From: Woeseiaceae bacterium
GTDB taxonomy: Bacteria; Pseudomonadota; Gammaproteobacteria; Steroidobacterales; Woeseiaceae
Reading direction: 5' to 3'
Length of the DNA: 64,000 nt
Assembly: GCA_021773035.1 (NCBI GenBank)
Contig: JAJFKU010000023.1
Span: 1 to 64,000 of the forward strand
A program made the position numbers and the translations under genes. Shown here in pieces: positions 12,959 to 39,985 of this stretch (positions are counted from its first letter, which is position 1; each line of letters opens with the position of its first letter). The notes under the pieces are model-generated. The model was not told where the DNA came from. It made no database searches and saw nothing but the letters and a program-made list of their open reading frames with translations.

Positions 12959-13747
12959 TCAGGTGTAGATTTCGGATCTTCTGGCGCTGACGAGCTCGAA
13001 ATGGTTATCCGGCATTCCCGCAATGAGCGATAAATCCAGCTGCGTGTGCAGGATTTCCTCGCCATCGCCGGCCGCGGCGATAACGTCACCCCAGGGGCCG
13101 AACAGTGCGCTTCCCCCACCGTAGGCCGTGGCATTTACGCTGAACACAAAGCAGCGGTTTTCGTAGGCACGGGTTCGCATCATCGCGGTATTGATGCTCC
13201 CCGGGTCGGGGCTAAACCAGTCCGTAGCGGTGGGGTGCAAAATCAGCTTCGCTCCCTGTAAGCGCAGGCTGCGGCAAACTTCGGGGAAGTGGCGGTCAAA
13301 ACAAATCATCGCCCCGATCGTGAGGCCGGCGAATTCCGTTACGGGCAGTTCCAGACCTTCGCTATAGGCGAGGTGCTCGTTCGCTTCGCGGCACAGGTGT
13401 GACTTGCGGTAAACGAGTTGCATCGATCCGTTTCGATCGTAAAACACCGCGGTGTTGTAGATATTGTCTGCCTGGAGTTCAGCGAGGCTCCACATAATGC
13501 CGACTCCGTAGTGTCGGGCCAGGGCTGCGATTTCCCAGGATTCCTCGCCATCGAGCGGTCTTGCGAGGTCTCTTAAGTTGCTACTGGAGCAGGCGTAGCC
13601 ATCCAGTACGCTTTCCGGAAAACAGATGAGATCGGGTTTTTCCCGCATGGCTTCGTGAATCAGCGCTTTGCTCTTCGCAAGATTGTCGTCAAGCTCGCCT
13701 GCTGCGCAATTCATCTGTATGCCTGCCAGTTTCAGTTTTACTGTCAT
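12959..13747 (-). CDS. Carbon-nitrogen hydrolase (nitrilase superfamily amidase)
   Basis: 262 residues. The catalytic triad is E45 (CFPES), K115 (YRKSHL) and C149 (ICFDRHFPE), as in the nitrilase/omega-amidase/carbamoylase superfamily. No signal peptide. Family members hydrolyse amides, N-carbamoyl amino acids or nitriles. Its ATG overlaps the end of the racemase gene by 4 bp (ATGA), so the two are translationally coupled. As last gene of the 16254-to-12959 operon it likely acts on an amide or carbamoyl amino acid handled by the neighbouring racemases; the substrate is inferred only. Confidence 0.88.
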   Translation of the reverse strand: MTVKLKLAGIQMNCAAGELDDNLAKSKALIHEAMREKPDLICFPESVLDGYACSSSNLRDLARPLDGEESWEIAALARHYGVGIMWSLAELQADNIYNTAVFYDRNGSMQLVYRKSHLCREANEHLAYSEGLELPVTEFAGLTIGAMICFDRHFPEVCRSLRLQGAKLILHPTATDWFSPDPGSINTAMMRTRAYENRCFVFSVNATAYGGGSALFGPWGDVIAAAGDGEEILHTQLDLSLIAGMPDNHFELVSARRSEIYT

Positions 13748-14451
13748 GATGAGCTCCCGTCACCAAGCATCCAGTCCGCGCCAGCCCGAGCGTGAATCTG
13801 CGTGCTATCGAACACCGGAATATGGGTGTCATCCTGTGACACCAGCAAAGGGATTTCCGTACATCCCAGAATGACTCCCTGCGCTCCTTTTGCTGCCAGC
13901 CGATCTATGCAGCGAAGGTACTCGGTTCGCGATGAGTCTTTCAGGAGTGCGGCACCGATTTCATCGAAAATTACGTCATTGATGAATTGCTGGTCCTCCT
14001 GATTCGGAACGACAACGGAGATTCCGTGTTTGCGCTCCAAATAGCCACGATAAAAGTCCTCCCGCATCGTGTAGATGGTGCCCATGAGTCCGACCTTCTC
14101 AAGGCCCTGTTTCTTTACGGCGGCTGCGGTTGCATCGGCAATGTGAAGCAGTGGAATACCCACCGCATCGCTCACCGCAGCGGCTACTTTGTGTACCGTG
14201 TTGCAGCAGATCATAAACGCTTCCGCGCCGGCTGCCTCGAGATCCCTGGCTGCGTTTACCAGCAACGCCGTCACTGCATCCCAGTCACCGACTTCCTGAA
14301 GCGCCACGAATTCGGCGAAGTCGAGGCTGTTGATCAGGATGTGTCCAGACCGCAGTGGCCCCAGGCGCGAACTGACTTGTGTCTGAAGGGTTTCGTAGTA
14401 TGCCGCCGTGGCTTGCCAGCTAATTCCACCGATGAGTCCAAGTTTTTTCAT
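13744..14451 (-). CDS. Aspartate/glutamate racemase family protein (racemase 1)
   Basis: 235 residues. Starts MKKLGLIGGISWQAT, the classic opening of aspartate racemases. The two catalytic cysteines are visible: C83 (ICCNTVHK) and C197 (LGCTEIPLL). Cofactor-independent two-base racemisation of an acidic amino acid is expected. Coupled by a 4-bp overlap to the nitrilase. A good minus-strand sigma-70-like promoter at 14521-14548 could drive this pair separately from the upstream genes. Confidence 0.9.
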   Translation of the reverse strand: MKKLGLIGGISWQATAAYYETLQTQVSSRLGPLRSGHILINSLDFAEFVALQEVGDWDAVTALLVNAARDLEAAGAEAFMICCNTVHKVAAAVSDAVGIPLLHIADATAAAVKKQGLEKVGLMGTIYTMREDFYRGYLERKHGISVVVPNQEDQQFINDVIFDEIGAALLKDSSRTEYLRCIDRLAAKGAQGVILGCTEIPLLVSQDDTHIPVFDSTQIHARAGADWMLGDGSSS

Positions 14452-14520
14452 GTGGCGATCCTTTGCTCTGCTGCGGCTTGCGCTTCACAGCGCCTAGCGT
14501 GTTCTGTGAATCTTATTGGG

Positions 14521-14548
14521 CTTATAAGTATACTGACATACAAGTCAA
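14521..14548 (-). promoter_or_regulatory. Candidate internal sigma-70 promoter before racemase 1
   Basis: On the minus strand TTGACT (14548-14543) and TATAAG (14526-14521) are separated by 16 bp, a near-consensus -35/-10 pair. It overlaps the 3' end of the upstream racemase 2 gene and points into racemase 1 and the nitrilase. Confidence 0.45.
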
Positions 14549-15318
14549 AAGTGGTTCAAACCTTGGCAATTCCAGGGAAGCGTCGGGGGCGGGTTGCAGG
14601 CGGCCTGCGCCACGGTAAGGAACAGGTGATTTATCAGCGTTGTCATATCGAAGACGGGCAAATTCGTTGCCCGCTGTGCTGCGACGCTGTATGGCGGCAG
14701 GTCGCTGCATTGAAACAACCAGGCACCGATCTCCGGGTGTTGCCTGGCGGTTGCGAGCAGGTACTGTACAAAGGCCTGTTCGAGTTCGTGGCCCGATGCT
14801 TCATCTCCTTTCTGCAGAAAAGCATCAAAACCCGAAATCTCGCCACCGTGCAGTATGACGAGACGCTCCGCGTCAGCGTCGGAAATCCGACATTCTTCGC
14901 GCACACGATGAGTGAAGGCTGCCGCATCGGCGAAAATTACGCCCAGCTTTTGCGAGGAAGGCAGTCCCGTCAGTACAAAGGGCAGCTGACTCATTATGGA
15001 CATGTAAGCGGGAACGGAGGCGTACGCGGTAACGCGCGTCTGCCAGTTGGCGAAGGAGCCACAGGCACCAACAATCATTTTCACCCCCTGTTGTTCAAGA
15101 TTAAGAACGGCCTGTTTGATCGGTTCGTCACAATTGCTGTCGCCGGTCATCAAATGCGGAAACGGGACGTCAACGATTTCGTAGATCACCGGAAACGGAA
15201 AGGACGTTGCATTCTGTACGTTACCGGGCAGCAGCGGATGCCTGGTACGGAGGACGACAATTCCAAGTTTGAATCCGGCCAGCGGGCCGTATGTCCTCGC
15301 AACTAAATCTCGTGACAT
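14545..15318 (-). CDS. Asp/Glu racemase superfamily protein (racemase 2, hydantoin racemase/maleate isomerase-like)
   Basis: 257 residues. Unlike racemase 1 it lacks the LIGGxSW start; the fold is suggested by KLGIVVLRTRHPLLPGNV, VKMIVGACGSFAN (C86) and AWLFQCSDLPP (C204), which would be the two active-site cysteines. The phase of the Cys positions and the length fit the Asp/Glu/hydantoin racemase superfamily. It is 42 nt downstream of the BKACE gene. Substrate could be an amino acid, a hydantoin or a maleate-like acid. Confidence 0.75.
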   Translation of the reverse strand: MSRDLVARTYGPLAGFKLGIVVLRTRHPLLPGNVQNATSFPFPVIYEIVDVPFPHLMTGDSNCDEPIKQAVLNLEQQGVKMIVGACGSFANWQTRVTAYASVPAYMSIMSQLPFVLTGLPSSQKLGVIFADAAAFTHRVREECRISDADAERLVILHGGEISGFDAFLQKGDEASGHELEQAFVQYLLATARQHPEIGAWLFQCSDLPPYSVAAQRATNLPVFDMTTLINHLFLTVAQAACNPPPTLPWNCQGLNHF

Positions 15319-15360: not shown

Positions 15361-16254
15361 TCAGCCGAAGTTCTTCAGCTGCAGAATCTCTCGTGCCTCA
15401 TTCGGTGTCGCGATCGCGCAGCCGAGGTTGTCGATTATCTGTGCTGCACGTTCGACGAGCTGTCCGTTACTGGCAAAAACACCGCGCTCCAGGTAGAGAT
15501 TGTCTTCAAGCCCGACGCGGACATTGCCGCCCAGCAAGACGGATTGGGCGGCGACGGGAAACTGCATTCTTCCCAGGCCCAGTGCGGCCCAGTGCCGCTT
15601 TTCGGGCAGCAGGTTGCGCAGGTAGATCATCGTTTCCGGATCTGCGGGCGCACCCCACAACACGCCAAGTACAAACTGGAATAGCGGTGTTCCGTCCAGC
15701 AGTCCTTCTTCCTGAAGCTGCCTGGCAAACAGCAGGTCTCCGGCGCCGAACGCTTCCAATTCAGGCTTTACGTTTAGTTCCTGGAACCGCTTCGCCATAG
15801 CCCGCAGGGTTCGAGTGGTGTTCAGGTATACAAACTCGGTCTTCCCCTCAACCTGGTTGCCTGTGGTCACGTCGAGCGAGGCGATTTCGGGCAGGCAGTC
15901 GACCAGATGCGCGACGCGTTGTTCTACGCCCGCCACATCGCTACCCGGCAGGGCGCGTGCTTCATCCTCCGGATCCGGCAGAAAGAACGCTCCCAAACCG
16001 GCGGTCAGATTGATGACGATGTCAGTGTCGGATTCCCGGATACGTGACACCGTTTCCCGAAACAACTCGACGCTTCGGCTGCCTACGCCGGTTTCGGGGT
16101 CGCGCACGTGAACATGGGCAATGGATGCGCCGGCTTTCGAGGCTTCAATGGCGGAGGCCGCGATTTGTTTCGGGGTGACCGGGAAATTCGGGTGTGCCGG
16201 GTTGAACGGTGCGTTACCGGTTACTGCACAGGTGAGAATAACTTTGCGTTTCAT
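15361..16254 (-). CDS. Beta-keto acid cleavage enzyme (BKACE, DUF849/Kce family)
   Basis: 297 residues. Opening MKRKVILTCAVTGN and the zinc-binding HVHVRD (H47, H49) define the BKACE family; NLTAGLG and the FGAGDLLFARQLQEEG, QFVLGVLWGAP and GGNVRVGLEDNLYL segments are also typical. Enzymes of this family condense a beta-keto acid with acetyl-CoA and cleave it into acetoacetate-type and acyl-CoA products (for example 3-keto-5-aminohexanoate or dehydrocarnitine). First gene of the four-gene minus operon; upstream lies the 19-bp shared motif. It fits with the dehydrogenase at 20657-21595, which could supply a 3-keto acid. Confidence 0.92.
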   Translation of the reverse strand: MKRKVILTCAVTGNAPFNPAHPNFPVTPKQIAASAIEASKAGASIAHVHVRDPETGVGSRSVELFRETVSRIRESDTDIVINLTAGLGAFFLPDPEDEARALPGSDVAGVEQRVAHLVDCLPEIASLDVTTGNQVEGKTEFVYLNTTRTLRAMAKRFQELNVKPELEAFGAGDLLFARQLQEEGLLDGTPLFQFVLGVLWGAPADPETMIYLRNLLPEKRHWAALGLGRMQFPVAAQSVLLGGNVRVGLEDNLYLERGVFASNGQLVERAAQIIDNLGCAIATPNEAREILQLKNFG

Positions 16255-16555
16255 GACTAATGTTCCTACGCGCGGTTTCGCTTCATGTTTGGTTTCGGGT
16301 CAATAGATTAACACGAATCTAACGTTTGTCATGTAATACGCTGCCACCAAAAAATAGCGAATTTCTTCAGGATTTCTGTTTTAATTTATAATTAACAATG
16401 ATTTATCAAAATAATGCAATCTTCCTGGAGGTTGTTTCCGGGAATTCTATGTACATACTGAACGATTGTTTGGTAGGATTGTTTTGAGGTTCGCCGGCGC
16501 AGAAAACAACGCGTCAGCGCCACATTAATTCCGACGGCTGAACAGGTGGGTATCA
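16255..16555. other. Divergent AT-rich promoter region of the BKACE and M23 operons
   Basis: 301 bp without a gene. It carries the 19-bp motif at 16315-16333 on the BKACE side and an AT-rich block at about 16350-16425 with a TATAAT at 16387-16392, a candidate -10 for the rightward M23/citryl-CoA lyase operon. No reading frame of note. Confidence 0.5.
16315..16333. promoter_or_regulatory. Shared 19-bp regulatory motif, copy A
   Basis: GAATCTAACGTTTGTCATG occurs here, 61 bp upstream of the BKACE start, and again as an exact reverse complement at 24866-24884 upstream of TonB receptor 2. It contains ACAAACGTT on the minus strand, which is also half plus centre of the LacI operators at 3893 and 7381. 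Likely an operator of a regulator shared by the two divergent promoter regions of the cluster. Confidence 0.6.
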
Positions 16556-17764
16556 ATGCTTTTACGCGCTATGGGTTTCCTGATTCTTTTACTCCCGGTG
16601 GCGTTCGGCAATGCCCTGGCGGCAGGCAGTCTGGCGGACGGCGTGCGCTTGTCGGTCAGAAACGCACCCGTGCCGGTGAGGGTGAACGGGAATCGCGAGG
16701 TTTTCTATGAACTTCATATAGAAAACCAGGGCGAGCGGCCGATCAAGCTCGTGCAGGTCTCGCTGCGAGAGAATCCGGGCGACGACAAGATCCGGGCCAG
16801 CTACGACGGCGCGGAGTTGCTCGGTAATCTGCAGATATTCGACGGCGATTATCGTGCCGCAGGACGTGACTACCTTCGCGACGAAAAGGAAGACCCGAAT
16901 TCCATCGGCTCGAGCATGGTCGGTGTCGTATTTTTACAGTTCGTACTGGACGAAGACGAAACCCTGCCGGACAGCTGGCTTCATGACGTCATCGTGCAGC
17001 GAACGAGCGCTGACGGCCAGCGCATCGAAACGCCAGTTTCAGGCGGCGTATTCACGCTCTCACAACGTGAGCCGCTGACAATTCGCCCACCGCTTCAGGG
17101 CGGTCCATGGTGGGTATTCGAGAGTATGGAAAACGCTGCCGTACATCGGCGTGCAATGGTTTTGCAGTCTCCTCTCATCTCACAGCGTTACGGGGTGGAC
17201 TACATGAAACTCGGTGAGAGCGGTTCGACTTTTGGCGGTGACGACCCAACTCGACAGGAGGCCTGGTACGGCTACGGCGAACCGGTCTTCGCCGTGGCCG
17301 ACGGCGTGGTCACTGACCTTATAGACGGGGTCCCCGAAAACACACCGCTGTCTCCGGAGCGTGCCGTTCCCATGACCATAGACACGATCAACGGCAACTA
17401 CGTCATTCTCGATATAGGTTCCGGTTACTACGCGGTATACGGCCACATGATTCCGAACAGCATCCGGCCCAGCCTGGGGCAGCGGGTGAGCCGCGGAGAT
17501 GTCATCGGGCTGCTCGGAAATTCAGGCAATTCAGAAGGGCCTCACCTGCATTTTCACCTGGGTACGGAAAACATGGTGTTTGAAGCCGAAGGGCTGCCCT
17601 ACGCCTACGAGCAATTCAAGGTGCTGGGTCGAGTCGATATGGAGCAGATTCAGGTCTCCGGTTTCAGCGAGGAACAGAAAATGGAAACGCTTCAGCGCAG
17701 AGATGAAATACCAGGCAATTTCACCGTGGTCGAGTTTCCGGAAACTGCCGGCTCTGTCGACTAG
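16556..17764 (+). CDS. M23-family (LytM) metallopeptidase, exported
   Basis: 402 residues with a signal peptide (MLLRAMGFLILLLPVAFGNALAA). Residues 25-190 are a beta-rich region; the C-terminal half is an M23 domain with GNYVILDIGSGYYAVYGHM, a LGQRVSRGDVIGLLGNSGNS segment and the zinc motif H330-L-H332-F-H334. The first zinc-ligand position reads SQRYGVDYMKL, without the usual His. M23 enzymes cut peptidoglycan cross-links or peptides. Heading a catabolic operon (next gene 50 nt downstream) is unusual for a cell-wall enzyme, so a role on an imported peptide is possible but unproven. Confidence 0.88.
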   Translation: MLLRAMGFLILLLPVAFGNALAAGSLADGVRLSVRNAPVPVRVNGNREVFYELHIENQGERPIKLVQVSLRENPGDDKIRASYDGAELLGNLQIFDGDYRAAGRDYLRDEKEDPNSIGSSMVGVVFLQFVLDEDETLPDSWLHDVIVQRTSADGQRIETPVSGGVFTLSQREPLTIRPPLQGGPWWVFESMENAAVHRRAMVLQSPLISQRYGVDYMKLGESGSTFGGDDPTRQEAWYGYGEPVFAVADGVVTDLIDGVPENTPLSPERAVPMTIDTINGNYVILDIGSGYYAVYGHMIPNSIRPSLGQRVSRGDVIGLLGNSGNSEGPHLHFHLGTENMVFEAEGLPYAYEQFKVLGRVDMEQIQVSGFSEEQKMETLQRRDEIPGNFTVVEFPETAGSVD

Positions 17765-17814: not shown

Positions 17815-18591
17815 ATGCAAAAGACAAAGACAGCACCAACGAGCAGCCTCTGCAGGTTTAACGAAAGCTCCATATTCATCCGCGATAGAGACCTGTGCGA
17901 GGAGCTGATCGGAAAAGTTAATTTCACGCAGATGATTTTCTTCGACATCCTGGGCCGGATGCCTTCGCGCACCGAAGAGGCGGTCATCAATGCGATGATG
18001 GTGACGTTGATGGAGCATGGCCTGGCACCGTCGGCGATCGCAACCCGACTGGTTTACTCCTCCGCGCCGGAAGCGCTGCAAGGTGCAGTTGCCGCGGGTT
18101 TGCTGGGAGCCGGTTCGGTCATGCTGGGTACGCTCGAGCAGGCCGCGGAGTTGCTGGAGAAAATAGTTCAGGACCCGGAGGGCATTCAATCCGCGGCTGA
18201 AAAGCAGGCTCGCTGGTACCGGGAAAACAGGCTGCCGCTCCCTGGATTTGGCCACCCCGATCATAAGCCCGACGATCCTCGCACCACTCGTTTGTTCGCT
18301 TTAGCCGAGGAACTCGATATTTCCGGCAGGTACGTGCAGTCCTGCAAGTCCCTCTCCGTGGCTGTCGACGAGGTCTACGGAAAACACATTACCGTGAACG
18401 CTTCGGCGAGCATGGCTGCGTTACTTTGCGAAATTGGAATTCCGAAAGAACTGATGCGTGGTTTTGCAGTTATTTGCCGAAGTGCCGGACTCGTGGCGCA
18501 TGTCTGTGAGGAAATGAACAATCCGCTCGCATGGACAATATCGCAGGCGGCAGAAGACGCGGTTTCGTACCGTCCCAATGAACCGGCATAG
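17815..18591 (+). CDS. Citryl-CoA lyase-like protein (short citrate synthase family)
   Basis: 258 residues, about two thirds of a full citrate synthase. The active-site loop GFGHPDHKPDDPRT (about 141-154) corresponds to the GFGHrvYKxxDPR motif of citrate synthase. AAGLLGAGSVMLGTLEQAAELLEKI precedes it, and the C-terminus (AAVLCEIG..FAVICRSAGLVAHVCEE) matches stand-alone citryl-CoA lyases. Such proteins split citryl-CoA or a related 3-hydroxy-3-carboxyacyl-CoA. The next gene encodes a CoA ligase (23 nt gap), giving a plausible activate-then-cleave pair. Confidence 0.85.
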   Translation: MQKTKTAPTSSLCRFNESSIFIRDRDLCEELIGKVNFTQMIFFDILGRMPSRTEEAVINAMMVTLMEHGLAPSAIATRLVYSSAPEALQGAVAAGLLGAGSVMLGTLEQAAELLEKIVQDPEGIQSAAEKQARWYRENRLPLPGFGHPDHKPDDPRTTRLFALAEELDISGRYVQSCKSLSVAVDEVYGKHITVNASASMAALLCEIGIPKELMRGFAVICRSAGLVAHVCEEMNNPLAWTISQAAEDAVSYRPNEPA

Positions 18592-18614
18592 GCGCGGCGT
18601 CGTCAGGAGGCGTA

Positions 18615-20222
18615 TTGAAACCAACCCTTAACTTCGCGAAAGACCTGGTCAACGCGGCGCTCCGATATCCTCAGTCCGTTGGCCTGGTTCATGGTGACGA
18701 CCGCTGGACATGGGCAGAGCTAAATGCCGACGTAGATGCGCTCGCTGCAGGTCTTCGTTCGCTTGGTGTGGGTCGCGGTGACATGATCTTCGTGCTGACA
18801 CCAAACAATCGCTGCGCGTTTGAGACGGTCTATGCTGCTGCCAAACTGGCAGCGATCGACGTGCCGCTGAACTTTCGGGATACGGCATCTGAGTTAAGCG
18901 GTTTCCTGAAACTCTGTGAGCCCCGGTACCTCATTGTCGACACGGGCAACTGCCAAAAAGTGCAGCAGGTGCAGGCTGATTACCCGGGCCTGGAGCAAAT
19001 CATCGTGTTCGGGGAGCTGTCCGAAAAACAACGTGTTGATGGCTGGCTTTCCTACGACGAGCTAATTGCCGAAAACCGGGGGACAGTCATTGCCACGGAG
19101 AATGTTCAGGACGAAGAAATATGCCGGCTGAGTTTCGGCTCAGGGACCACCGGCGAGCCCAAGGCTCTGTTGCACTCTTTCGAGCAATACGCCTATACGA
19201 TCGTTAATCGTCTTGCTGACGTGCTGGTTGGCGTCGGGCCGACAGATGCGTTTCTTGCGATCGGCCCGCTTTCCCATGGCTCCTCTACAGTGAATATCGC
19301 GATGACGGCCCGGGCTGCGAAGACCGTCTTCTTACCGACGCAGAAATTTTCCGAGGAGCAGTGCTGGGAGCTGATCGAACAGCATAAAATCACCTGTCTG
19401 TTCCTTGTCCCGACGATGCTGATGCGACTGGTCCGATATCTGAAAAGCAGTGACCACGACCACTCTACCCTGACACATGTGATTTACGCAGGTGCTCCGA
19501 TTTCGAGAGAGGATCAGAAGGAAGCACTGCAGGCGCTGGGACCGGTTCTTGTTCAATACTATGGTTCCGGGGAGTTGCTGGGACACGGTACGGTTTTGAC
19601 ACCGGCGATGCATAGTCTGCGCGACGATGATCCGCTGGCACCACCGGGAACCGCCGGCGTCGCGAGGACGGGCACGGATCTCGAAATACTGGACCAGGAT
19701 TTTCTGCCGCTACCCTGCGGCAGCGTGGGCTCTATCTGCATAAAGCGGGGTCCCGGTGCATTTTCCGGGTACTTTCGCGACGATCCCGCAACGTCGGAGG
19801 TAATCAAGGGTGACTGGCTGTTTACCGGGGATGTCGGCTATCTGAATGAAAGGGGTTTTCTTTTCATCGTCGGCCGGACAAAGGAAATCTACAAATCGGG
19901 TGGCCTGCAGGTATTTCCGAACGAAACTGAGAACACCCTGTGCCAACACGACGGTGTTGCAGAGGCATGCGTGATTCCGTTTCCCGACAGCGAGTGGGGA
20001 GAGGTCGGAGTGGCCATCGTCACGGCACGCGATGACGGTGAGTTGGACGAAGATACGCTAAAGACGTTTCTGCGTGAAAGGCTGTCCGGCTACAAAATAC
20101 CGAAACGCATATTTATATGGACGGAAATACCAAGAAGCGCGGTGGGCAAGTTGCAAAAACCGTCAATTCGAGCAGAGATATACAAGCGTCGCCTGCTGCA
20201 GGAAGGTATTGATATCCGCTAG
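18615..20222 (+). CDS. AMP-dependent acyl-CoA synthetase/ligase
   Basis: 535 residues from TTG 18615, chosen because GGAGG lies at 18606-18610. ANL-superfamily motifs are all present: LSFGSGTTGEPKALLHS (about 175), the A5 region QYYGSGELLG (a variant of YGxTE), WLFTGDVGYLNERGFLFIVGRTKEIYKSGG and the catalytic-Lys motif SAVGKLQK near the C-terminus. It activates a carboxylic acid to its CoA thioester in the cytoplasm. The pairing with a citryl-CoA lyase-like protein and an epimerase-like VOC protein suggests a branched or dicarboxylic acid substrate. Confidence 0.92.
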   Translation: MKPTLNFAKDLVNAALRYPQSVGLVHGDDRWTWAELNADVDALAAGLRSLGVGRGDMIFVLTPNNRCAFETVYAAAKLAAIDVPLNFRDTASELSGFLKLCEPRYLIVDTGNCQKVQQVQADYPGLEQIIVFGELSEKQRVDGWLSYDELIAENRGTVIATENVQDEEICRLSFGSGTTGEPKALLHSFEQYAYTIVNRLADVLVGVGPTDAFLAIGPLSHGSSTVNIAMTARAAKTVFLPTQKFSEEQCWELIEQHKITCLFLVPTMLMRLVRYLKSSDHDHSTLTHVIYAGAPISREDQKEALQALGPVLVQYYGSGELLGHGTVLTPAMHSLRDDDPLAPPGTAGVARTGTDLEILDQDFLPLPCGSVGSICIKRGPGAFSGYFRDDPATSEVIKGDWLFTGDVGYLNERGFLFIVGRTKEIYKSGGLQVFPNETENTLCQHDGVAEACVIPFPDSEWGEVGVAIVTARDDGELDEDTLKTFLRERLSGYKIPKRIFIWTEIPRSAVGKLQKPSIRAEIYKRRLLQEGIDIR

Positions 20223-24707: not shown

Positions 24708-24865
24708 TTTTGATTTCAGTTTTACCAAACAAGTGTTCAATATGTTCGAAATGGGGCACAAAAAGCAAGAGGTATTTTCTGTGCGATTATATAATAGTTT
24801 GTAATTTAAAGGATAATTTGATCAATTTCACATCAATACGACGATTTTTCGTCAACAACGGAAAT

Positions 24866-24884: not shown

Positions 24885-24972
24885 TTGTGTAGTATTGCGA
24901 TCTGTCCGTACGCGAGCTGCTTGGTTTGCAGGGCATCAATACAGTTGGATCCGGCTACATAGGGGCAAGAAA

Positions 24973-31750: not shown

Positions 31751-33138
31751 ACGCAGACGACATCGAGTCATTCCTCCGGGAACGGATAGCGGGGCACAAG
31801 GTGCCGGGCGCAAGCCTCGCACTAGCAAAAGGTGAGCGGTTGCTGCAGGCGTCGGCAGGCGTACTCAATCTTCACACCGGGGTGCCGGTTAATACGGAAT
31901 CCGTGTTCCAGATAGGTTCGATTACCAAGGTCATTACAACGACGCTGGTAATGATGCTGGCAGACCGTGGACAGCTTAAGCTCGACGAGCCGGTCGTCAA
32001 ATACCTTCCGGGCTTCCGGCTCCGACGCGGCGAACCCTACAGCCGCATTACTACGCGACACCTGCTGACGCACACATCCGGCATAGACGGAGATTTTTTC
32101 CTGGATACGGGCCGGGGTAAAGGGGCATTGGCAAAGTACGTCAGGCAGTGTCGGTCTCTGCAGATGATTCATCCGCCTGGCAAGCATTTTTCGTACTGCA
32201 ATACGGGTTTCGTGATTGCCGGCAGATTGATCGAAGTGTTGTCGGGGCGAAGCTGGGATCAGGTTGTCAGTGAGTGGCTGTTTGAGCCGCTGCACCTTAC
32301 GCACTCGGCAACGCTGGCGGAGCATCTCGTTGGTAAGTCTGCGGCGATCGGTCATATTCCCGCAGAAGATGACGGGACGACATTCGAACCGCTGTCCAAC
32401 GCCTATGCCATTCCGTTCAGCATTGGGCCTGCCGGCAGCACCGTGACGATGAGTGCACTGGACCTTCTCACCTTTGCTCGTATGCACGAAAACGAGGGAC
32501 GGGCGCCGGACGGCCGGCAAATTCTACGCCCGGAATCGGTGGTTGCGATGCAACAGCCATCGGTTAAGCTGCCGGGGTTCACCTCCTGGGGGCGTGAGTG
32601 CTGGGGCCTCGGCTGGTCGACAAGTCACTGGGGCGAAAACAGGTGCATCGGACACGATGGAAACACCGATGGCCAAAGAGCATTCCTGTTGATGCTGCCC
32701 GATCTTCGCGCCGCCATGGTCCTGCTGACAAACGGTGGCGCCGGTATCGATCTGGCACACGAGGTTTACGACGAGCTGTTCGCCGGTTTCGCCGCGCTAA
32801 CGCCCAGGAACAGACCGCCGCATGCCGTGATCGACGACCTGGATCTGTCGCCTTACACAGGGTTCTACCGCCATTCTCCCGGTTACTCAAAGGTCTTTTT
32901 GCAGGGCCGCGAACTTCGTATGCAGTCCTTCGAAGAACCGGGTTCCGTACCGGAATCGTTCAGTTTGCGGGCGATTGGCGAGTCGACGTTTTTGTGCGAT
33001 CGGCCTCCCAATGCAAGTCCCTGGTATGTGCAGTTTCCGGACCTCGATGAAGACGGTAAAGCCACCTGTATGTTTTCCTTGTACCGGCGATGCCCGCGTG
33101 TCAATTTTGCGGACCTGCAAGCGGCGGAAATGTCGTGA
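31747..33138 (+). CDS. S12-type serine hydrolase, MlrB-type candidate 3
   Basis: 463 residues from GTG 31747, coupled to the previous gene by a GTGA overlap. A paralogue of the preceding hydrolase: S58-I-T-K61, Y150-C-N152, RHLLTHTSGIDGDFF and IGHDGNTDGQRAFLLML. A 19-nt stretch coding for IDGDFF is identical in both genes. C-terminal lipocalin-like region (SPYTGFYRHSPGYSKVFLQGRELRM). Cytoplasmic. Function as for its neighbour; keeping two copies suggests two cleavage steps or two substrate variants. Confidence 0.9.
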   Translation: MNADDIESFLRERIAGHKVPGASLALAKGERLLQASAGVLNLHTGVPVNTESVFQIGSITKVITTTLVMMLADRGQLKLDEPVVKYLPGFRLRRGEPYSRITTRHLLTHTSGIDGDFFLDTGRGKGALAKYVRQCRSLQMIHPPGKHFSYCNTGFVIAGRLIEVLSGRSWDQVVSEWLFEPLHLTHSATLAEHLVGKSAAIGHIPAEDDGTTFEPLSNAYAIPFSIGPAGSTVTMSALDLLTFARMHENEGRAPDGRQILRPESVVAMQQPSVKLPGFTSWGRECWGLGWSTSHWGENRCIGHDGNTDGQRAFLLMLPDLRAAMVLLTNGGAGIDLAHEVYDELFAGFAALTPRNRPPHAVIDDLDLSPYTGFYRHSPGYSKVFLQGRELRMQSFEEPGSVPESFSLRAIGESTFLCDRPPNASPWYVQFPDLDEDGKATCMFSLYRRCPRVNFADLQAAEMS

Positions 33139-34214
33139 AGGCGGTTCAGCGCGTATTGGACAGTCACGCAAAGCTGTCCCTGCTGACGGGGCCGACCCCG
33201 TTGGAACCACTGGATCGCTTAAGCGATTGTCTTGGCGGCCCTCAGCTCTGGGTGAAGCGGGATGACTGCACCGGCCTGGCCTTTGGCGGTAACAAGGTCC
33301 GAAAGCTCGAATACCTGCTCGGGGACGCGCTTGCCCGCGACGCTGATCTGCTAATCACCAACGGCGCGCTGCAATCGAATCATGCGAGGCTGACGGCGGC
33401 GGCAGCCGTGAAAGCGGGTATGGCCTGCGATCTGCTTCTCGCGCCCTGTGACGCCGGACGTTTTGCGATCGAGCGTAAATCGGGCAACGCGCTGCTCGAC
33501 CGATTGCTGGGTGCAAACCTTCACGTGAAGGCAAGCGATCAAAATCTGGGCCAGGGTATGCGCGATATCGCCGCGCAAAGACGCCGGGAGGGGTTTTCGC
33601 CCTACATTATTAACGCCGGAGGATCGTCTGCTATCGGCAGTCTCGGCTACGTTGCCTGTGCGCTAGAGATCGCCGCGCAGGCGCATACCCTGGGCGTCCA
33701 TTTCGACTATGTTTTGCACGCCGCAGGCAGTTGCGGAACGCAGGCGGGTCTGGTGACGGGGTTCCAGTTGCTCGGTCTCGATACGGCGGTGCTGGGTGTT
33801 GCGGTAAGCCCCGACGGCGAGCAGACGTTTCGTCATGAGCGGGTGGCTGAGTTGCGTCGTGAATTGCTGGCCCTGTTTGACCTGTCTCCTTGCCAGAAGG
33901 CGTTATCGGTGCTGTTGACGGGCGATTACAGCGGGCCTTGTTACGGCGAAGCCGATGCAGCGACCTTTGACGCGATCAGCCTGTTTGCGCAGACCGAAAG
34001 CATCATTCTGGACCCTGTGTACTCGGGCAAAGCTGCCGCTGCCGCCATTGGCCTGAGCAGAAAAGGACGTTTTTCAAGCGACGCCAATGTGTTGTTTTTG
34101 CATACCGGGGGAACGCCTGCGCTATTTGCCCGCTATGCGGCCGCCGGCTCAAATGCAGGCAAGTGTAAGGGGCTAGCGATGAAAACCCGGAAGGATAACG
34201 CTGCAAGACCATGA
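33135..34214 (+). CDS. PLP-dependent D-cysteine desulfhydrase/ACC deaminase family protein (copy 1)
   Basis: 359 residues from GTG 33135 (GTGA overlap with the S12 gene; the frame is open to 33090). LWVKRDDCTGLAFGGNKVRKLEYL contains the PLP lysine K54, and GALQSNHARLTAAAA, GGSSAIGSLGYVACALEI, AAGSCGTQAGLV and LDPVYSGKAAAA are family signatures. Relatives deaminate D-cysteine, 1-aminocyclopropane-1-carboxylate or cysteate to keto acids. In this operon it probably deaminates a D- or modified amino acid released by the hydrolases. Confidence 0.9.
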   Translation: MKAVQRVLDSHAKLSLLTGPTPLEPLDRLSDCLGGPQLWVKRDDCTGLAFGGNKVRKLEYLLGDALARDADLLITNGALQSNHARLTAAAAVKAGMACDLLLAPCDAGRFAIERKSGNALLDRLLGANLHVKASDQNLGQGMRDIAAQRRREGFSPYIINAGGSSAIGSLGYVACALEIAAQAHTLGVHFDYVLHAAGSCGTQAGLVTGFQLLGLDTAVLGVAVSPDGEQTFRHERVAELRRELLALFDLSPCQKALSVLLTGDYSGPCYGEADAATFDAISLFAQTESIILDPVYSGKAAAAAIGLSRKGRFSSDANVLFLHTGGTPALFARYAAAGSNAGKCKGLAMKTRKDNAARP

Positions 34215-34312
34215 ACGAACAGTTGACCAAGAAATCATCGAACTCGATAATCCGTGCAGGCGCCAGGGTACCGGGAACCCCCGGTTGGGCGGGCTGGAGA
34301 AAGGTTAAGTCG

Positions 34313-35512
34313 ATGACTAAATCACAGCAAAAAGACAAACAAAAGCACGTGATTGCTTTAGCAGCGGGCCTGGTCAGACAGCAGGGATACGAAAACACCA
34401 CCGTCCGGGATATCGCCTCTGCGGCCGGCATGCTGCCGGGGTCTCTTTATTACCATTTCCCATCCAAAGCGGATCTGCTGTACGAGATTCACCGCAGGGG
34501 TATGGGAGAGCTGCGGGCAGGAGCGATAGCGGCGATTGACGGCATCGTGGCACCCTGGGAGCGCCTCGAAGCCGCTTGTGCGACGCATGTGCAGATGATT
34601 CTCGAAGGGGAGGAACATATTGGTGTTGCGGTGTTTTCGCTGCCGAAGTCGGATCCGGATCTGCTAAACCGGCTGACCGCGGCTCGCGACTCCTATGAAG
34701 ATATTTACCGGCAGTTGATTGCCGAGTTGCCCCTGTCCGGAGAAGTGGATCGAAAGCACCTTCGGCTGGCTTTGCTGGGCGCTCTTAACTACACGGAGGT
34801 CTGGCACGGCGAAGGGTCGCTGCAGGCGCACGAGATCGGCAGGAAGATTTGCGAACTGTTTCGGTTTTGCCTGGAACACGGAGCGCACACGGCAGACTCT
34901 GCTGTAGCGAAACATGCTGCGCTGATTGAGCAGGCAATGAATCTCGATCACGAGTCGGGTGAGGAAAAAGATCGCGGTAAAAAGATCATAACCGCCGCCG
35001 CTCATCTGTTTGCCAACCGTGGCTATAAATCAAGCAGCATGCGCGATATCGGCGACGAGGCAGGCTTGGAGGCCGGGTCGATCTACTATCATTTCAAATC
35101 GAAATCCGAGCTCTTCATTGCGATCGTGGACGAAGCCCTGAAGCGTCGCCGCAACGCGATCGAACTCGTGTTCAACGATATTGACGACCCCTGGGAAAAG
35201 CTGGAAGTCACTTGTGCCATACACTTGCTTTTCCTGCTTTCGAAAAACGACTTTGCGACTATCATCAGCCAGCCGACCGGCTCTGAAGACACAAAAATAT
35301 GGGATCGGATTATCAAGGTCAGGGATGGTGTGGAGCAGGAGTTTAAGGGGCTGATCGATGCGCTTGAGCTGCCCGAAGCCTTAAACACAAAGCTGTATTT
35401 GTTCGTGTTACTGGGTGCGATCAATACGGTGCATATCTGGTACCGGTCACACCGCGATGGCCCCGCTCAGATCGCGCATCATATCGTCAGCATGTTGCAT
35501 CCGGGCGAGTAG
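34313..35512 (+). CDS. Tandem TetR regulator (two TetR modules in one chain)
   Basis: 399 residues from ATG 34313, preceded by GGAGAAAGG; an ATG at 34211 (ATGA overlap with the PLP gene) would add 34 residues. Module 1 has its helix-turn-helix at about 29-48 (TTVRDIASAAGMLPGSLYYHF); module 2 repeats the architecture at about 220-262 (SSSMRDIGDEAGLEAGSIYYHF). Each is followed by a ligand-binding-type helical domain. A single chain would act as a pseudo-dimer with two non-identical DNA-reading heads and could bind an asymmetric site. It is likely the cluster-specific repressor; the 19-bp motif is a candidate target. Confidence 0.85.
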   Translation: MTKSQQKDKQKHVIALAAGLVRQQGYENTTVRDIASAAGMLPGSLYYHFPSKADLLYEIHRRGMGELRAGAIAAIDGIVAPWERLEAACATHVQMILEGEEHIGVAVFSLPKSDPDLLNRLTAARDSYEDIYRQLIAELPLSGEVDRKHLRLALLGALNYTEVWHGEGSLQAHEIGRKICELFRFCLEHGAHTADSAVAKHAALIEQAMNLDHESGEEKDRGKKIITAAAHLFANRGYKSSSMRDIGDEAGLEAGSIYYHFKSKSELFIAIVDEALKRRRNAIELVFNDIDDPWEKLEVTCAIHLLFLLSKNDFATIISQPTGSEDTKIWDRIIKVRDGVEQEFKGLIDALELPEALNTKLYLFVLLGAINTVHIWYRSHRDGPAQIAHHIVSMLHPGE

Positions 35513-35513
35513 A

Positions 35514-36539
35514 ATGAATTCCGATCGCAGCGTGTTGCATCGCCTGGATCAAATCGATCGCTTTCCGCTGTGTCACTTGCCTACACCGCTGCAGCCGCTG
35601 GATCGTTTGTCTGCGACCCTTGGCGGCCCTCGACTGTGGATCAAGCGGGACGACTGCACGGGTCTGAGTCTGGGCGGGAACAAGTCCCGCAAGATGGAAT
35701 ACGTGATACCGGAGGTCATTGCCAGTGGCGCAGATACGCTGGTGACCATAGGCGCGCTGCAGTCCAATCACGTTCGCCAAACCATAGCGGCGGGGGTCAG
35801 GAGTGGCATGGAGAGCTGGGTCGTGCTCGGAAACTGGGTGGGCCATGAACACGCTTCCTATCTGCGCTCCGGAAATCGCCTGCTTGACGAGGTTCTGGGC
35901 GCCAGAATTTTTACAGCCGGTGACGACGAGACGCCGGACGATGCGCTGAGTCGTGTTTGCGACGCGGCGATTGCCGCCGGACGCAAGCCTTCCATTGTTG
36001 CATTGGGCGCGTCCACCCCGGTTGGGGCTCTGGGCTATGCTCATAGTGCCGTCGAGCTGTTGCAGCAATGTGAGGCAGAAGGTTTCAAGCCGGCTGCTGT
36101 GTATTTCGCCTCCGGGTCCGGCGGGACTCAGGCGGGACTTCTGGCCGGCATGCTGGCGGCGAAGGCGCGTACGATTGTTCAGGGCATATCGGTGTTCAAT
36201 GCGAACGGCCAGGAACTGCTTGGGGTCATTGAATCGATTTGTGCGGAAACCCTGAAACTGCTCGGGGATGCCACAGAGATCGCCTCCGATGATTTGCGTC
36301 TGGACGAAACACAGCTCGGCCCCGGTTATGGGCAGCCAACTGATGAGATGCTCGAGGCTCTGCGCCTGCTGGCCCGGCTCGAAGCTGTCATTCTGGATCC
36401 GGTTTACACGGCTAAGGCAATGGCCGGCCTGATTAAGGACCTTCGCGAAGAACGCTTTGGAGCCGATGAAAACATTGTTTTCATTCACACCGGCGGTGCA
36501 CCTGGTTTGTTCGCGTACGCCGATATTATCGATTTTTGA
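35514..36539 (+). CDS. PLP-dependent D-cysteine desulfhydrase/ACC deaminase family protein (copy 2)
   Basis: 341 residues from ATG 35514, one base after the regulator stop. LWIKRDDCTGLSLGGNKSRKMEYV holds the PLP lysine K57; GALQSNHVRQTIAAG, GASTPVGALGYAHSAVEL, ASGSGGTQAGLLAG and LDPVYTAKAMAGL follow. Paralogous to 33135-34214, with the same TPL.PLDRLS..LGGP.LW.KRDDCTGL opening. The length also fits the L-cysteate sulfo-lyase (CuyA) branch. Separated from copy 1 by the tandem TetR gene. Confidence 0.9.
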   Translation: MNSDRSVLHRLDQIDRFPLCHLPTPLQPLDRLSATLGGPRLWIKRDDCTGLSLGGNKSRKMEYVIPEVIASGADTLVTIGALQSNHVRQTIAAGVRSGMESWVVLGNWVGHEHASYLRSGNRLLDEVLGARIFTAGDDETPDDALSRVCDAAIAAGRKPSIVALGASTPVGALGYAHSAVELLQQCEAEGFKPAAVYFASGSGGTQAGLLAGMLAAKARTIVQGISVFNANGQELLGVIESICAETLKLLGDATEIASDDLRLDETQLGPGYGQPTDEMLEALRLLARLEAVILDPVYTAKAMAGLIKDLREERFGADENIVFIHTGGAPGLFAYADIIDF

Positions 36540-36563
36540 TTGTACAAGCTTACAGGTCGAAGC

Positions 36564-37463
36564 ATGTCTGAATACCGGGATATAGAGTGTGTCGCGATGG
36601 TCGGCGCCGGTGTCATGGGAAGTAAAGTTGCCTGGGCATGTTGCGTGGCCGGATTAAGCGTGCGCTTGTATGACCCGTCCCGGCCGCAGATGGAACGAGC
36701 CCTGAAAAAGATCGAATGCTGGATGCGAGAAGACGGCTGCGCCGAGGCAGAGATCGCGGATGCACTGTCTCATGTAACGCTGCATGACAGTCTCGGTGCA
36801 GCCGTCGACGGGGTCGATCTCGCCTTCGAGAATGTGCCGGAGCGCCTTGATCTGAAAAACTCGGTCCATCGGCAAATTCACGAGCTGGTGCCCGAAGACG
36901 TGTTGCTGGGTTCAAACGCTTCGTCAATCGTTGTCTCCGACCTGGCTGACGCTTCGGGGCGTCCGGAACTCTTTTTCAACATGAATTTTGCGGACCCCAG
37001 GGAAGGGCCGCTCGTTGAGATCATGGTGGGTCCGAAGACCAGCACGAAAACACTGAAGAGTGCCGAACTATGGGCTCGAAAATTAAACATGATCCCGATC
37101 ATTACGCGCAAAGAGATCATCGGGTATTGCTTCAACCGGATCTGGCGCGCCATCAAAAAGGAGTCACTCTTTCTGGCGGACCAGGGCTATGCGGATTTCG
37201 AGGATATCGACCGCGCATTTATGCTGTCTTTCGGCGTTCCGCAGGGGCCGTTCGCGATAATGGATGAAGTGGGTCTCAATTCCGTCAAGCTGGTTGAGGA
37301 GCAGTACTATCAGGCGAGCGGAGATGCCAGCGACAGGCCGCCGAAGATACTTAACGACCTGGTCGACGAGGGTCATCTGGGCGTGCAGTCCGGTAAAGGG
37401 TTTTACGACTACCCGAATCCGGCTTACAGCCGGCCGGGCTGGTTGGCCAAGCAAGAAGATTAG
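36564..37463 (+). CDS. 3-hydroxyacyl-CoA dehydrogenase-type NAD-dependent oxidoreductase
   Basis: 299 residues from ATG 36564; a TTG directly after the upstream stop (36540) would add 8 residues. NAD motif VGAGVMGSKVAWACC, then ENVPERLDLKNSVHRQI, LGSNASSIVVSDLADA, FNMNFADPREGPLVEIM and FGVPQGPFAIMDEVGLNSV, giving both the Rossmann and the C-terminal helical dimerisation domains. Normal HPxNP is replaced by NFADPREG, so the substrate may not be an ordinary 3-hydroxyacyl-CoA. Last gene of the 27416-37463 operon. Confidence 0.87.
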   Translation: MSEYRDIECVAMVGAGVMGSKVAWACCVAGLSVRLYDPSRPQMERALKKIECWMREDGCAEAEIADALSHVTLHDSLGAAVDGVDLAFENVPERLDLKNSVHRQIHELVPEDVLLGSNASSIVVSDLADASGRPELFFNMNFADPREGPLVEIMVGPKTSTKTLKSAELWARKLNMIPIITRKEIIGYCFNRIWRAIKKESLFLADQGYADFEDIDRAFMLSFGVPQGPFAIMDEVGLNSVKLVEEQYYQASGDASDRPPKILNDLVDEGHLGVQSGKGFYDYPNPAYSRPGWLAKQED

Positions 37464-37600: not shown

Positions 37601-38998
37601 ATGAGTGAAACATCAAATCAAACAACTGTTCGGGTCGCCCCAGTGCCTCGTATGACGCTGTCCAGAAAGACCTGCGCCGCGTTCGCCGCGCCGGGTTTTA
37701 CCGAGAACATGATGATGGCGCCGGTGTTGGGGATTCTGCCCGCCCTGTACGCCGAAGACTTTGGCCTGAGTCTCGCAACCGTTGGAATGATCTTCATGCT
37801 GGCGCGGATTTTCGATGCTGTCACCGATCCGCTGGTTGGTTACCTTTCAGATCGAACGCTGTCACGCTTTGGCGCCAGAAAACCCTGGATCGTCGCCGGC
37901 CAGTTCTTGTCCATGATCGCGGTCTTCTTCCTGTTCATACCCCGGGAAGGGGCGGGGACGATCTACTTCGCCGTGTTCTCCAGCATACATTTTCTCGGCT
38001 GGACGATGCTGATGATTCCGTACAACGCCTGGACGGCGGAGTTAAGCGGAGACTACACCGAGCGCGCGCGCCTGTTCACCTACCGGAGTTGCGCCGTATA
38101 CGGCGGTGCGCTGCTGTTTACGATAGCACCGCTGGCACTGTCGCCCTGGACGGGAAATTCGGAATACGATTTCGAGTTCATGAAGTTGCTCTGTTACTTC
38201 CTGCTGACCGCAATTCCTGTACTGACCCTGATCGCATTAACCGCCGTTCCCCAGGGAAAGAAAATACTCACGATACCGCCCTCGATCGGGGACACTTTGC
38301 AGGCGATCAGGAAGAACAAGGTGCTGCTGCTCTTTATCGTGGTGGCGGTAATCGGAAGCCTGGCGCAGGGTATTGCCGGGGCGCTGGAGTTTCTCTATCT
38401 CAGCAACTACATGAAGCTCGGACCCCATATTCCGATTTTGCTGACGGCGGGTGTAGTGACATCCCTGTTCGCGATTCCGCTCTGGTATTCGCTGGTGAAT
38501 CGCTTCGGTAAACACAAACCGTGGGCGATCTCGAGTCTTATCTTCGCGGTCTGTGCGCCGCTGTATCTTTTTCTACAGCCTGGCGAGAAATCGTTGCCGT
38601 GGCTGTTCGCACTGATTTTCGTCATGGGCTTCGTCCGCGCAACCGGGGCCGTAGCACCGCAGTCGATGCTGGCCGACATCATCGATTTCGACACATTGAA
38701 GACCGGTGCGAACAGGGCGGGCAGTTACTTCTCTCTGCTCATGTTGATCTCAAAAGGCGGACTCGCGGTGGGCGGCGGGATAGGTTTGTGGCTTGTCGGA
38801 GCCGGCGGTTATGACCCAACCGCCGCAGTTAACGACAGCTCTGCGAACTTCACTTTCCTGCTGGTTTACGCGCTCGTACCAGGCACTCTGCTTGCCGTGA
38901 ATGCGCTGCTGATCTTCAGGTATCCATTGAACGAGAACCGCCAGTCGATAATCCGGAAACGGCTTGAACAACTGACAGAAAGAGCGCTCGTCAAGTGA
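37601..38998 (+). CDS. Sugar/glycoside:cation symporter, GPH (MelB-like) MFS transporter
   Basis: 465 residues with about 12 transmembrane segments. DAVTDPLVGYLSDRTLSRFGARKPWIVAG (about 64-92) is the GPH/MelB signature with its cation-site aspartates, and MIPYNAWTAELSGDYTERAR follows, also typical. Members carry glycosides, pentosides or hexuronides with Na+ or H+. It would be the inner-membrane importer for TonB receptor 2 and plays the position that a transporter (MlrD) has in mlr clusters, although it belongs to a different family. A LacI-type operator core lies upstream. Confidence 0.9.
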   Translation: MSETSNQTTVRVAPVPRMTLSRKTCAAFAAPGFTENMMMAPVLGILPALYAEDFGLSLATVGMIFMLARIFDAVTDPLVGYLSDRTLSRFGARKPWIVAGQFLSMIAVFFLFIPREGAGTIYFAVFSSIHFLGWTMLMIPYNAWTAELSGDYTERARLFTYRSCAVYGGALLFTIAPLALSPWTGNSEYDFEFMKLLCYFLLTAIPVLTLIALTAVPQGKKILTIPPSIGDTLQAIRKNKVLLLFIVVAVIGSLAQGIAGALEFLYLSNYMKLGPHIPILLTAGVVTSLFAIPLWYSLVNRFGKHKPWAISSLIFAVCAPLYLFLQPGEKSLPWLFALIFVMGFVRATGAVAPQSMLADIIDFDTLKTGANRAGSYFSLLMLISKGGLAVGGGIGLWLVGAGGYDPTAAVNDSSANFTFLLVYALVPGTLLAVNALLIFRYPLNENRQSIIRKRLEQLTERALVK

Positions 38999-39022
38999 GT
39001 TTCATACGTTGAGAGACAAACA

Positions 39023-39985
39023 ATGAATAGAATGAAAAACAAAGTCATCGTCTTTTCGCTGCTACTGGCCGCCCCGCTGCCGGCCCTGCCCGAAGGGCAG
39101 TTGAACATCGCATTGACTAACGATGACGGCTGGCAGGCCCACGGTATTCAGGCCGTACACCGGGCATTGACCGAAGCCGGCCACCAGGCAACGATGGCGG
39201 CACCGTCCGACCAGCAGAGCGGCAGCAGTGCAGCGATGGACAGTGACAGCATCGAGGTGCGCCGCGTTGCCGAAACCCAGTATTCGGTAACGGCCTGCAA
39301 AGACGATGCCTGCGATGCCAGAGCAGGCGCGGAGCCGATAACAGCGGCGCTGGTTGCCGTCGACCTGGCACGGCGAAGCGGTGACGATTCGTGGCCCGAC
39401 CTGCTGGTTTCCGGCATCAACGAAGGTACGAATATCGGCGTCGCGACACAACTGTCGGGTACCGTCGGGGCGACCGTGGCCTCGCTTTCGCATGTTATGA
39501 ACAGCGCAGTGCCGTCCATCGCGATCAGCACGGACGAACCGGCGCATTGTGAAGACAACGAATCCTGCGTCATTGCGCACTACGACGACGTCGCCAACTT
39601 CATAGTGCGGCTGGTCGAGGTTCTCAACGAACGCCGCGCGGCAAGCGAGTCTCTTCTGCCTGCGGGCATAGGGCTGAACATCAATTACCCCAGCGCGTCA
39701 CCCAGGGGCGTGCGCGTCGTACGCCAGGAAAGCAAGATGGATATCGGCGGGTCGGTGATGGTGTTCGAGGTCGGTTGCGAGAAATGCCCGGGACTGGAAA
39801 TAGGCGAGATCGCAGCGGCAACTAACCTTAGCTTCAGCCCGGACAGTGCGGCGGAACCCGGCGGCGAGATATCAAGCTTCAACGAAGGCTACGTCACCAT
39901 CGTACCTATCCGTATCGACTATACGGCGTCCGACTATCAGGCCTTATCGGACTGGTTTGACGGCATGCACTGGGAGTCGCAGTAA
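39023..39985 (+). CDS. Exported SurE-like 5'/3'-nucleotidase or phosphatase
   Basis: 320 residues. SurE hallmarks: LNIALTNDDGWQAHGI (metal-binding NDDG), MAAPSDQQSGSSAAMD, DLLVSGINEGTNIG and SGTVGATVASL. An N-terminal signal peptide (KNKVIVFSLLLAAPLPALPEG) is unusual, because classical SurE is cytoplasmic. It has extra Cys pairs (CKDDACDA, CEDNESC, CEKC) consistent with periplasmic disulphides. It could remove a phosphate from an imported conjugate. 24 nt after the transporter, probably the same transcript. Confidence 0.87.
   Translation: MNRMKNKVIVFSLLLAAPLPALPEGQLNIALTNDDGWQAHGIQAVHRALTEAGHQATMAAPSDQQSGSSAAMDSDSIEVRRVAETQYSVTACKDDACDARAGAEPITAALVAVDLARRSGDDSWPDLLVSGINEGTNIGVATQLSGTVGATVASLSHVMNSAVPSIAISTDEPAHCEDNESCVIAHYDDVANFIVRLVEVLNERRAASESLLPAGIGLNINYPSASPRGVRVVRQESKMDIGGSVMVFEVGCEKCPGLEIGEIAAATNLSFSPDSAAEPGGEISSFNEGYVTIVPIRIDYTASDYQALSDWFDGMHWESQ

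Follow-up and report, generated by a model that had tools for sequence, protein, structure and literature searches.

A gene island with two M81 metallopeptidases in a Woeseiaceae bacterium and its possible role in the use of peptides with D- or unusual amino acids

Gene content and organization of the island

We analysed a 27-kb gene island (positions 12959–39985) in a window of 64,000 nucleotides, which comprises positions 1 to 64,000 of contig JAJFKU010000023.1 of a Woeseiaceae bacterium (assembly GCA_021773035.1); all coordinates are those of the window. Pfam and NCBIfam models identify in the island two MlrC-like peptidases of family M81, three S12 hydrolases and two lyases of the D-cysteine desulfhydrase type, together with one Asp/Glu racemase, an amidase, an S9 oligopeptidase, a beta-keto acid cleavage enzyme (BKACE), two members of the 3-hydroxyacyl-CoA dehydrogenase (3-HCDH) family, a CoA ligase, a TonB-dependent receptor and a GPH permease. 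A first-pass annotation of the sequence had listed these families, with a second Asp/Glu-type racemase, as a possible enlarged mlr-like pathway for a peptide containing D- or beta-amino acids; family matches were found for all but that second racemase. Genes beyond its list are a tandem TetR regulator, an M23-family gene, and citryl-CoA-lyase-like, VOC and SurE-like genes. From strand and spacing, the genes would form four operons.

The main operon runs rightward and begins with the TonB receptor (24895–27309, likely from the ATG at 24973; PF00593 and PF07715), followed by M81a (27416–28894), M81b (28899–30377), S12b (30368–31750; PF00144, E 5e-58), S12c (31747–33138; E 5e-64), the lyase PALP1 (33090–34214), the tandem TetR regulator (34211–35512), a second lyase, PALP2 (35415–36539), and the 3-HCDH family enzyme HCDH2 (36540–37463; PF02737/PF00725, below every NCBIfam cut-off). 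Downstream, on the same strand, lie the GPH/MFS_2 permease (37601–38998; PF13347, E 1e-71; TIGR00792 189.5 bits, below the cut-off of 231) and a SurE-like phosphatase (39023–39985; PF01975, E 1.7e-31; below every NCBIfam cut-off), likely exported as judged by eye from its hydrophobic N-terminus.

M81a and M81b match both PF07364 and PF07171 above cut-off (E 3.5e-78 to 3.5e-51) and thus belong to peptidase family M81. The open reading frame (ORF) of M81b is listed from 28788, but its start is most likely the ATG at 28899, because homology to MlrC begins there. The MlrC zinc ligands are given in PMC9982164 as E39, D167, H169 and H191, with E70 as the general base. All four ligands are kept in the 12 M81 proteins that were aligned (M81a, M81b and ten others); the E70 position, in a poorly aligned region, reads E in M81b, D in M81a and mostly other residues in other pairs. 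The three S12 proteins match PF00144 above cut-off and carry the SxxK motif of the family, as SITK in S12b and S12c, which also have YCN, and as SLSK in S12a, which has YSV at the latter position. Among solved chains the nearest to S12b is 6ksu, and to S12c 7spn. PALP1 and PALP2 match the CuyA model NF052482 (E 3e-111 and 6e-111; 371 and 370 bits, cut-off 450); they score 288 and 293 bits against the D-cysteine desulfhydrase model NF003030 (cut-off 429) and 274.5 and 265.9 bits against TIGR01275 (cut-off 289.4). The nearest solved chain of PALP1 is the D-cysteine desulfhydrase 7ysk.

Back to back with the main operon, a leftward operon comprises S12a (23568–24761; PF00144, E 3e-65), the S9 oligopeptidase (21592–23568; PF00326, E 3e-45) and HCDH1 (20657–21595; NF004783 361 bits, cut-off 347). 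The S9 and S12a genes adjoin; elsewhere, a 744-residue protein (P0238) carries S9 and S12 Pfam domains in one chain. A rightward operon encodes the M23-family protein (16556–17764; PF01551, E 1.9e-16), likely exported, with an N-terminus that is hydrophobic by eye, then a citryl-CoA-lyase-like C-C lyase (17815–18591; NF004868 302 bits, cut-off 193), an acyl-CoA ligase (18615–20222; PF00501, E 1.7e-65) and a VOC protein resembling methylmalonyl-CoA epimerase (20249–20653; TIGR03081 84 bits, below the cut-off of 115). The leftmost operon, read leftward, consists of BKACE (15361–16254; PF05853, E 1e-93), race2 (14545–15318), race1 (13744–14451) and the amidase, a nitrilase-fold C-N hydrolase (12959–13747; PF00795, E 5.5e-46; below every NCBIfam cut-off). 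Of the two racemases first proposed, race1 stands (PF01177, E 4e-46; TIGR00035 206.6 bits, cut-off 93.1), but race2 is unproven and is left unclassified: it resembles only PRK07475, has no Pfam match and scores 175.7 bits against NF005679, a 'hypothetical protein' model with a cut-off of 231. The two proteins align by BLASTP over 28 residues only (E 0.007), no useful solved relative of race2 was found, and a structure model of it was set aside (pLDDT 39.5).

A conserved core in distant bacteria

M81 loci were sought in one genome per species, which gave at least 586 loci; the best 80 were kept, and the window proteins were compared with them by tblastn. A core formed by a TonB receptor, a GPH permease, S12 hydrolases and two M81 genes in the order a then b, often with a D-amino-acid lyase, recurs in Emcibacter (L032: S12, GPH, TonB, S12, M81, M81, PALP), in Parasphingopyxis (L037: TonB, GPH, S12, S12, M81, M81, S12) and on an alphaproteobacterial contig of 6.4 kb whose end falls within the cluster (L033: PALP, S12, S12, M81, M81; TonB and GPH were not seen on this contig). 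Farther out in the Emcibacter flanks are relatives of the CoA ligase (26%) and of the racemase (34%). The Woeseiaceae genome itself has six M81 genes, two of which form a second core on another contig, C58 (L014/L015). There, a D-serine ammonia-lyase, a CoA transferase, an aminotransferase, an aldehyde dehydrogenase, an HpcH/HpaI aldolase, an S12 hydrolase and two consecutive M81 genes are joined by an alpha/beta hydrolase, two more S12 relatives, two GPH relatives and a TonB receptor 58% identical to that of the window.

Among the 80 loci, S12 relatives lie near M81 in eight of the nine with a TonB match versus six of the 71 without (Fisher p 9e-7, uncorrected for kinship and short contigs). 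The S12c lineage, too, accompanies M81: four of its seven closest relatives appear, from contigs of equal size (8,638, 66,900, 3,563 and 28,239 bases), to be co-located with an M81 relative, and the 66,900-base contig, again judged by equal size, would also carry one of the three full-length relatives of the tandem TetR regulator. A family count for neighbourhoods picked for having S12 or TonB is biased by that choice and was not used as a test. The expectation that the gene set is conserved across genomes thus holds for the core but not for the whole: the four-operon set was not seen together in the 80 M81 loci or in the genomes of four relatives. A shared site is all that links the outer carbon operons to the core.

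M81 is sparse among relatives. It is present in seven of 60 related genomes, in six of 369 genomes of the class (E<=1e-50) and in 21 of 398 genomes of the phylum (E<=1e-90), the host genome being included each time; no other genome in the class and phylum lists has two side-by-side M81 matches. Viral contigs gave no match to M81b.

Other arrangements of M81 were also seen. The locus of Stella vacuolata (L053) has seven consecutive M81 matches between 7.3 and 17.7 kb. Two Massilia loci (L040 and L046) each contain TonB, two S12 and two M81 relatives, and in L040 a PTR2 permease, of the MlrD family, directly follows M81, making an mlrBCD-like set; in our trees the Massilia M81 proteins do not belong to the a/b pair type. 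A second PTR2 member was counted among the neighbourhoods picked for S12 or TonB. On contig C59 of the Woeseiaceae genome (L016, 11691–13028), a phage-integrase-family recombinase adjoins a diverged M81 gene, a possible hint of mobility. Next to the right end of the island, at 40728–45991, lie genes for an ECF sigma factor, FecR and a 1190-residue TonB receptor with a carboxypeptidase-regulatory-like domain.

The two M81 genes and their relation to MlrC

Trees were built with the five pairs whose gene order was observed (window, C58, L032, L033 and L037; 29 rows) and with eight pairs (44 rows); in the latter, the first or second label of three pairs came from the tree itself and is circular, so the test was repeated with the five observed pairs. 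The five first and five second M81 genes fall on opposite sides of one branch, with support of 94 (96.7 with eight pairs), and a duplication confined to the window was rejected (AU p 0.027 with 29 rows and 1.4e-5 with 44 rows). Because the first and second copies of the five pairs separate in this way, the M81 pair is likely an ancient duplication that has been kept in order, and such an ordered duplication suggests two tasks for M81a and M81b.

Placement of MlrC (7YLQ) inside the pair group was rejected in both trees (AU p 0.001), MlrC being on a long branch, and M81a and M81b score 301 and 323 bits against the NCBIfam microcystinase cut-off of 999.

A shared 18-bp site and a tandem TetR regulator

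The shared motif noted in the first pass proved to be an exact 18-bp site, AATCTAACGTTTGTCATG, present at 16316–16333 (+) between the divergent BKACE and M23 genes and at 24866–24883 (−) between the divergent S12a and TonB genes; together, these two regions head all four operons. In shuffles of the window 0.04 occurrences are expected at up to three mismatches. When the genome (5.38 Mb) was searched with the first 17 bases of AATCTAACGTTTGTCATG, only the two window copies were found at up to one mismatch; seven further matches were found at two to three mismatches, versus four in total for a reversed-pattern control. The halves of the site around AAC|GTT are unequal when read outward, CTAAC on one side and CAAAC on the other, and this asymmetry is kept in both copies. 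Copy 2 overlaps a promoter-like ATGACA-17-TAGTAT at 24867–24895 (+), facing the TonB operon. A third copy of the motif before the GPH gene (37519), CAAACGTTTG, was rejected, this form having three exact occurrences in the window and five at up to one mismatch versus 2.56 expected; the short core MWAACGTTTG was absent from the 23 loci searched.

The predicted partner of the site is the local TetR protein, in which one open frame encodes two TetR_N (PF00440) and two TetR_C_24 (PF17932) stretches, the halves being 33% identical over 175 residues. Among 7,997 candidates scored, 93 relatives were found at E<=1e-10, and full-length matches, with both Pfam domains and a coverage of 99% or more of the query, are limited to the window protein and three further proteins (P0242–P0244). 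A narrow literature search on tandem TetR regulators found no paper.

M81 genes beside peptide importers and D-amino-acid enzymes

Of 14 M81 loci chosen by hand among those without a TonB match, three (L053, L067 and L101) were dropped; at the remaining 11 loci, 99 of the 140 listed ORFs were scanned, and of a companion list of 118 ORFs 91 were scanned. The 99 ORFs include 13 BPD_transp_1, 11 oligo_HPY and seven SBP_bac_5 proteins, all parts of peptide ABC importers, along with six DAO-type oxidoreductases and two M55 D-aminopeptidases. Within the Woeseiaceae genome, three M81 loci (the window, C58 and one on contig C51) have D-amino-acid genes, and the kind differs from locus to locus. The D-serine ammonia-lyase of C58 scores 507 bits against NF002823 (cut-off 246) and is the only gene of the genome above the TIGR02035 cut-off, and on C51 (L017) the M81 gene is adjoined by DgcN (478 bits, just below the cut-off of 480) and DgcA (446 bits, cut-off 400). 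The C51 neighbourhood also includes genes for a LysR regulator, a nucleoside hydrolase, a PfkB kinase and an alcohol dehydrogenase.

Possible functions of the island

We infer that the island serves the inducible uptake and breakdown of a small peptide, or of an amide resembling one, that is rich in D- or unusual amino acids, in a way that is mlr-like in its working without belonging to mlr; we give this explanation an even chance. The TonB receptor and the GPH permease would bring the compound into the cytoplasm, where it would then be cut by the hydrolases of families S12 and S9 and by M81a and M81b, each of the latter two probably at a different bond, as the ordered duplication suggests. 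Judging from their families, the racemase would convert the residues set free to their D-forms and the two lyases would deaminate the D-residues. The leftover carbon acids would be degraded by the CoA ligase, the 3-hydroxyacid dehydrogenases, BKACE and the citryl-CoA-lyase-like enzyme. Through a predicted pairing with the 18-bp site, the tandem TetR protein likely keeps the four operons repressed until it is released by the substrate or by a product. A broader proposal is more tentative: that TonB, GPH, two S12 hydrolases, M81a, M81b and a D-amino-acid lyase form a distinct module that has spread between distant bacteria, that two anciently diverged M81 enzymes may share the cutting of a new class of D-/beta-amino-acid peptides, and that a single-chain double TetR might switch four operons by reading the same asymmetric 18-bp operator at each.

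Several observations weigh against import and digestion of such a peptide, or against parts of the scheme. PALP1 and PALP2 are below cut-off in all eight NCBIfam models that they match, S12a is class VIII esterase-like and among solved chains is nearest to esterases (7pp3), and the name of the GPH permeases refers to sugars. The genome has four strong DgcA-like genes, three above cut-off and one just below, and six D-cysteine-desulfhydrase-like genes, two of which are the window's own; with so many D-amino-acid enzymes some nearness to M81 is expected, and the nearness counts for less than it might seem to. No D-amino-acid gene was found among the five scanned neighbours of the C59 M81 locus. 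No BKACE gene lies next to M81 in any of the L032, L033, L037 and L043 genomes, and the compound served by the carbon operons may therefore be a different one. A site that is present twice is no proof that the local regulator binds it, and the promoter-like match at copy 2 is weak, since two such sites were seen in the window versus 1.0 expected by chance. Finally, the support of 94 for the separation of first and second M81 genes is just below the 95 mark of the tool, and one pair on equal-sized contigs (P0007 and P0088) has both members in the 'first' group and so departs from the pattern.

An alternative to be taken seriously is that the substrate consists of peptidoglycan peptides. The island would then scavenge cell wall, with S12, M81 and M23 enzymes trimming the stems of muropeptides and the racemase and lyases using the products, as could be suggested by the M23-family gene at the head of one operon of the presumed regulon, by the solved chains that S12b and S12c match, which include D-Ala-D-Ala carboxypeptidases and an alkaline D-peptidase, and by the C51 M81 gene, whose DgcA neighbour passes the cut-offs for both DgcA and L-Ala-D/L-Glu epimerase. 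However, the Pfam matches of the window proteins scanned include no muramoyl amidase, NagZ or LD-carboxypeptidase family, no M23 relative was seen in L032, L033, L037 or C58, and the M23 protein itself, by eye, is without the first zinc-binding His that is usual in the family. Among solved chains S12b is best matched by 6ksu, which is deposited as 'Alpha/beta hydrolase' and is presumably a nonribosomal-peptide cyclase. Taken as a whole, cell-wall scavenging seems unlikely, if not strongly so. A somewhat more doubtful explanation makes BKACE, the 3-HCDH enzymes and the CoA ligase the centre of the catabolism of a beta-hydroxy acid, a carnitine-like compound or an ester, with the S12 and M81 proteins as esterases or amidases. 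The presence of BKACE and the esterase-like S12a would fit this, as would HCDH1, for which carnitine 3-dehydrogenase is the next closest model after NF004783; yet the carnitine 3-dehydrogenase cut-offs are missed (180 bits against 592 and 161 against 414), the core found in relatives, made up of TonB, GPH, S12 and M81, shows no match to BKACE or HCDH, and M81 genes elsewhere have peptide importers as neighbours.

It is improbable that the island is a chance neighbourhood of unrelated catabolic operons: the richness of the genome in such enzymes would allow it, as would the lack of the complete four-operon set in the other loci and genomes compared, but the exact 18-bp site is shared and the core recurs in several lineages. 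Least probable is a true microcystin or nodularin degradation island with an undetected ring-opening enzyme. The M81 and S12 families are those of mlrC and mlrB, and the zinc ligands are conserved; against this, MlrC lies outside the pair group, on its long branch, and its general base appears not to be kept across the pairs, the region around it being poorly aligned. The ring-opening protease MlrA is of the CPBP type, and the genome has only two CPBP-family proteins (PF02517), on contigs C63 and C34 and neither near M81, which match no NCBIfam MlrA model; no MlrA-like gene thus lies near the island. No PTR2 (MlrD) protein was seen among the window proteins scanned, the permease being of the MFS_2/GPH type. 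MlrB is described in PMC12474180 as having a signal peptide and is placed there in the periplasm, unlike S12a, S12b and S12c, which by eye have no signal peptide. On the MlrC phylogeny, the want of an MlrA candidate and the type of transporter, microcystin was set aside and is probably not the substrate.

Wider meaning for the M81 family

M81 is a large family, with 2,598 relatives at E<=1e-20 among 7,998 candidates scored, and MlrC is, to our knowledge, its only experimentally studied member; the name of microcystin carried by many members is for these reasons probably misleading. A limited literature search found no functional study of an M81 protein outside mlr; PMC9608346 mentions the family once. 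The usual role of M81 is likely the turnover of D-amino-acid peptides, a fraction of dissolved organic matter that has been little charted. The conserved module, in which an M81 pair stands with import genes, D-amino-acid enzymes and a regulator, offers a testable route to that role. The tandem TetR protein and the asymmetric shared site pose a small, directly testable regulatory question.

Comparison with known systems

The island resembles the mlr cluster of Sphingopyxis (mlrC-A-D-B) in combining M81 and S12 hydrolases with an MFS permease and in its conserved zinc ligands. It differs in having two M81 and three S12 genes, GPH instead of PTR2 and, in addition, a TonB receptor and D-amino-acid lyases, and in that no MlrA was found at the island and its M81 proteins fall in a group that excludes MlrC. 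Of the mlr-like peptide pathway first proposed, the mlrB- and mlrC-type families, the dedicated import and the orientation towards D-amino acids remain the best fit, whereas membership of mlr, or a close tie to it, is not supported, given the phylogeny, the microcystinase score, the permease type and the failure of any MlrA model to match. M81 genes beside Dpp/Opp-type peptide ABC importers, as at the 11 hand-picked loci (Phyllobacterium, Burkholderiales and others), share with the island the pairing of M81 with peptide import, but have an ABC importer and no S12 match where the island has TonB and GPH.

The lyases and the racemase recall D-cysteine desulfhydrase and the couple of CuyA and the cysteate racemase CuyB, in that a racemase accompanies a pyridoxal phosphate (PLP)-type D-amino-acid lyase of the same superfamily, and PALP1 shares the YSGK and HTGG stretches of 7ysk. 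Unlike CuyA and CuyB, the island has two lyase paralogues that miss the cut-offs of the named families, PALP2 reads YTAK, and the setting is a peptide island. The sequence matches to S12 peptidases and cyclases of the penicillin-binding-protein (PBP) type (6ksu, Ulm16 8fek and the alkaline D-peptidase 4y7p) are distant, and S12b and S12c have the same SITK and YCN motifs as these enzymes, several of which act on D-residues.

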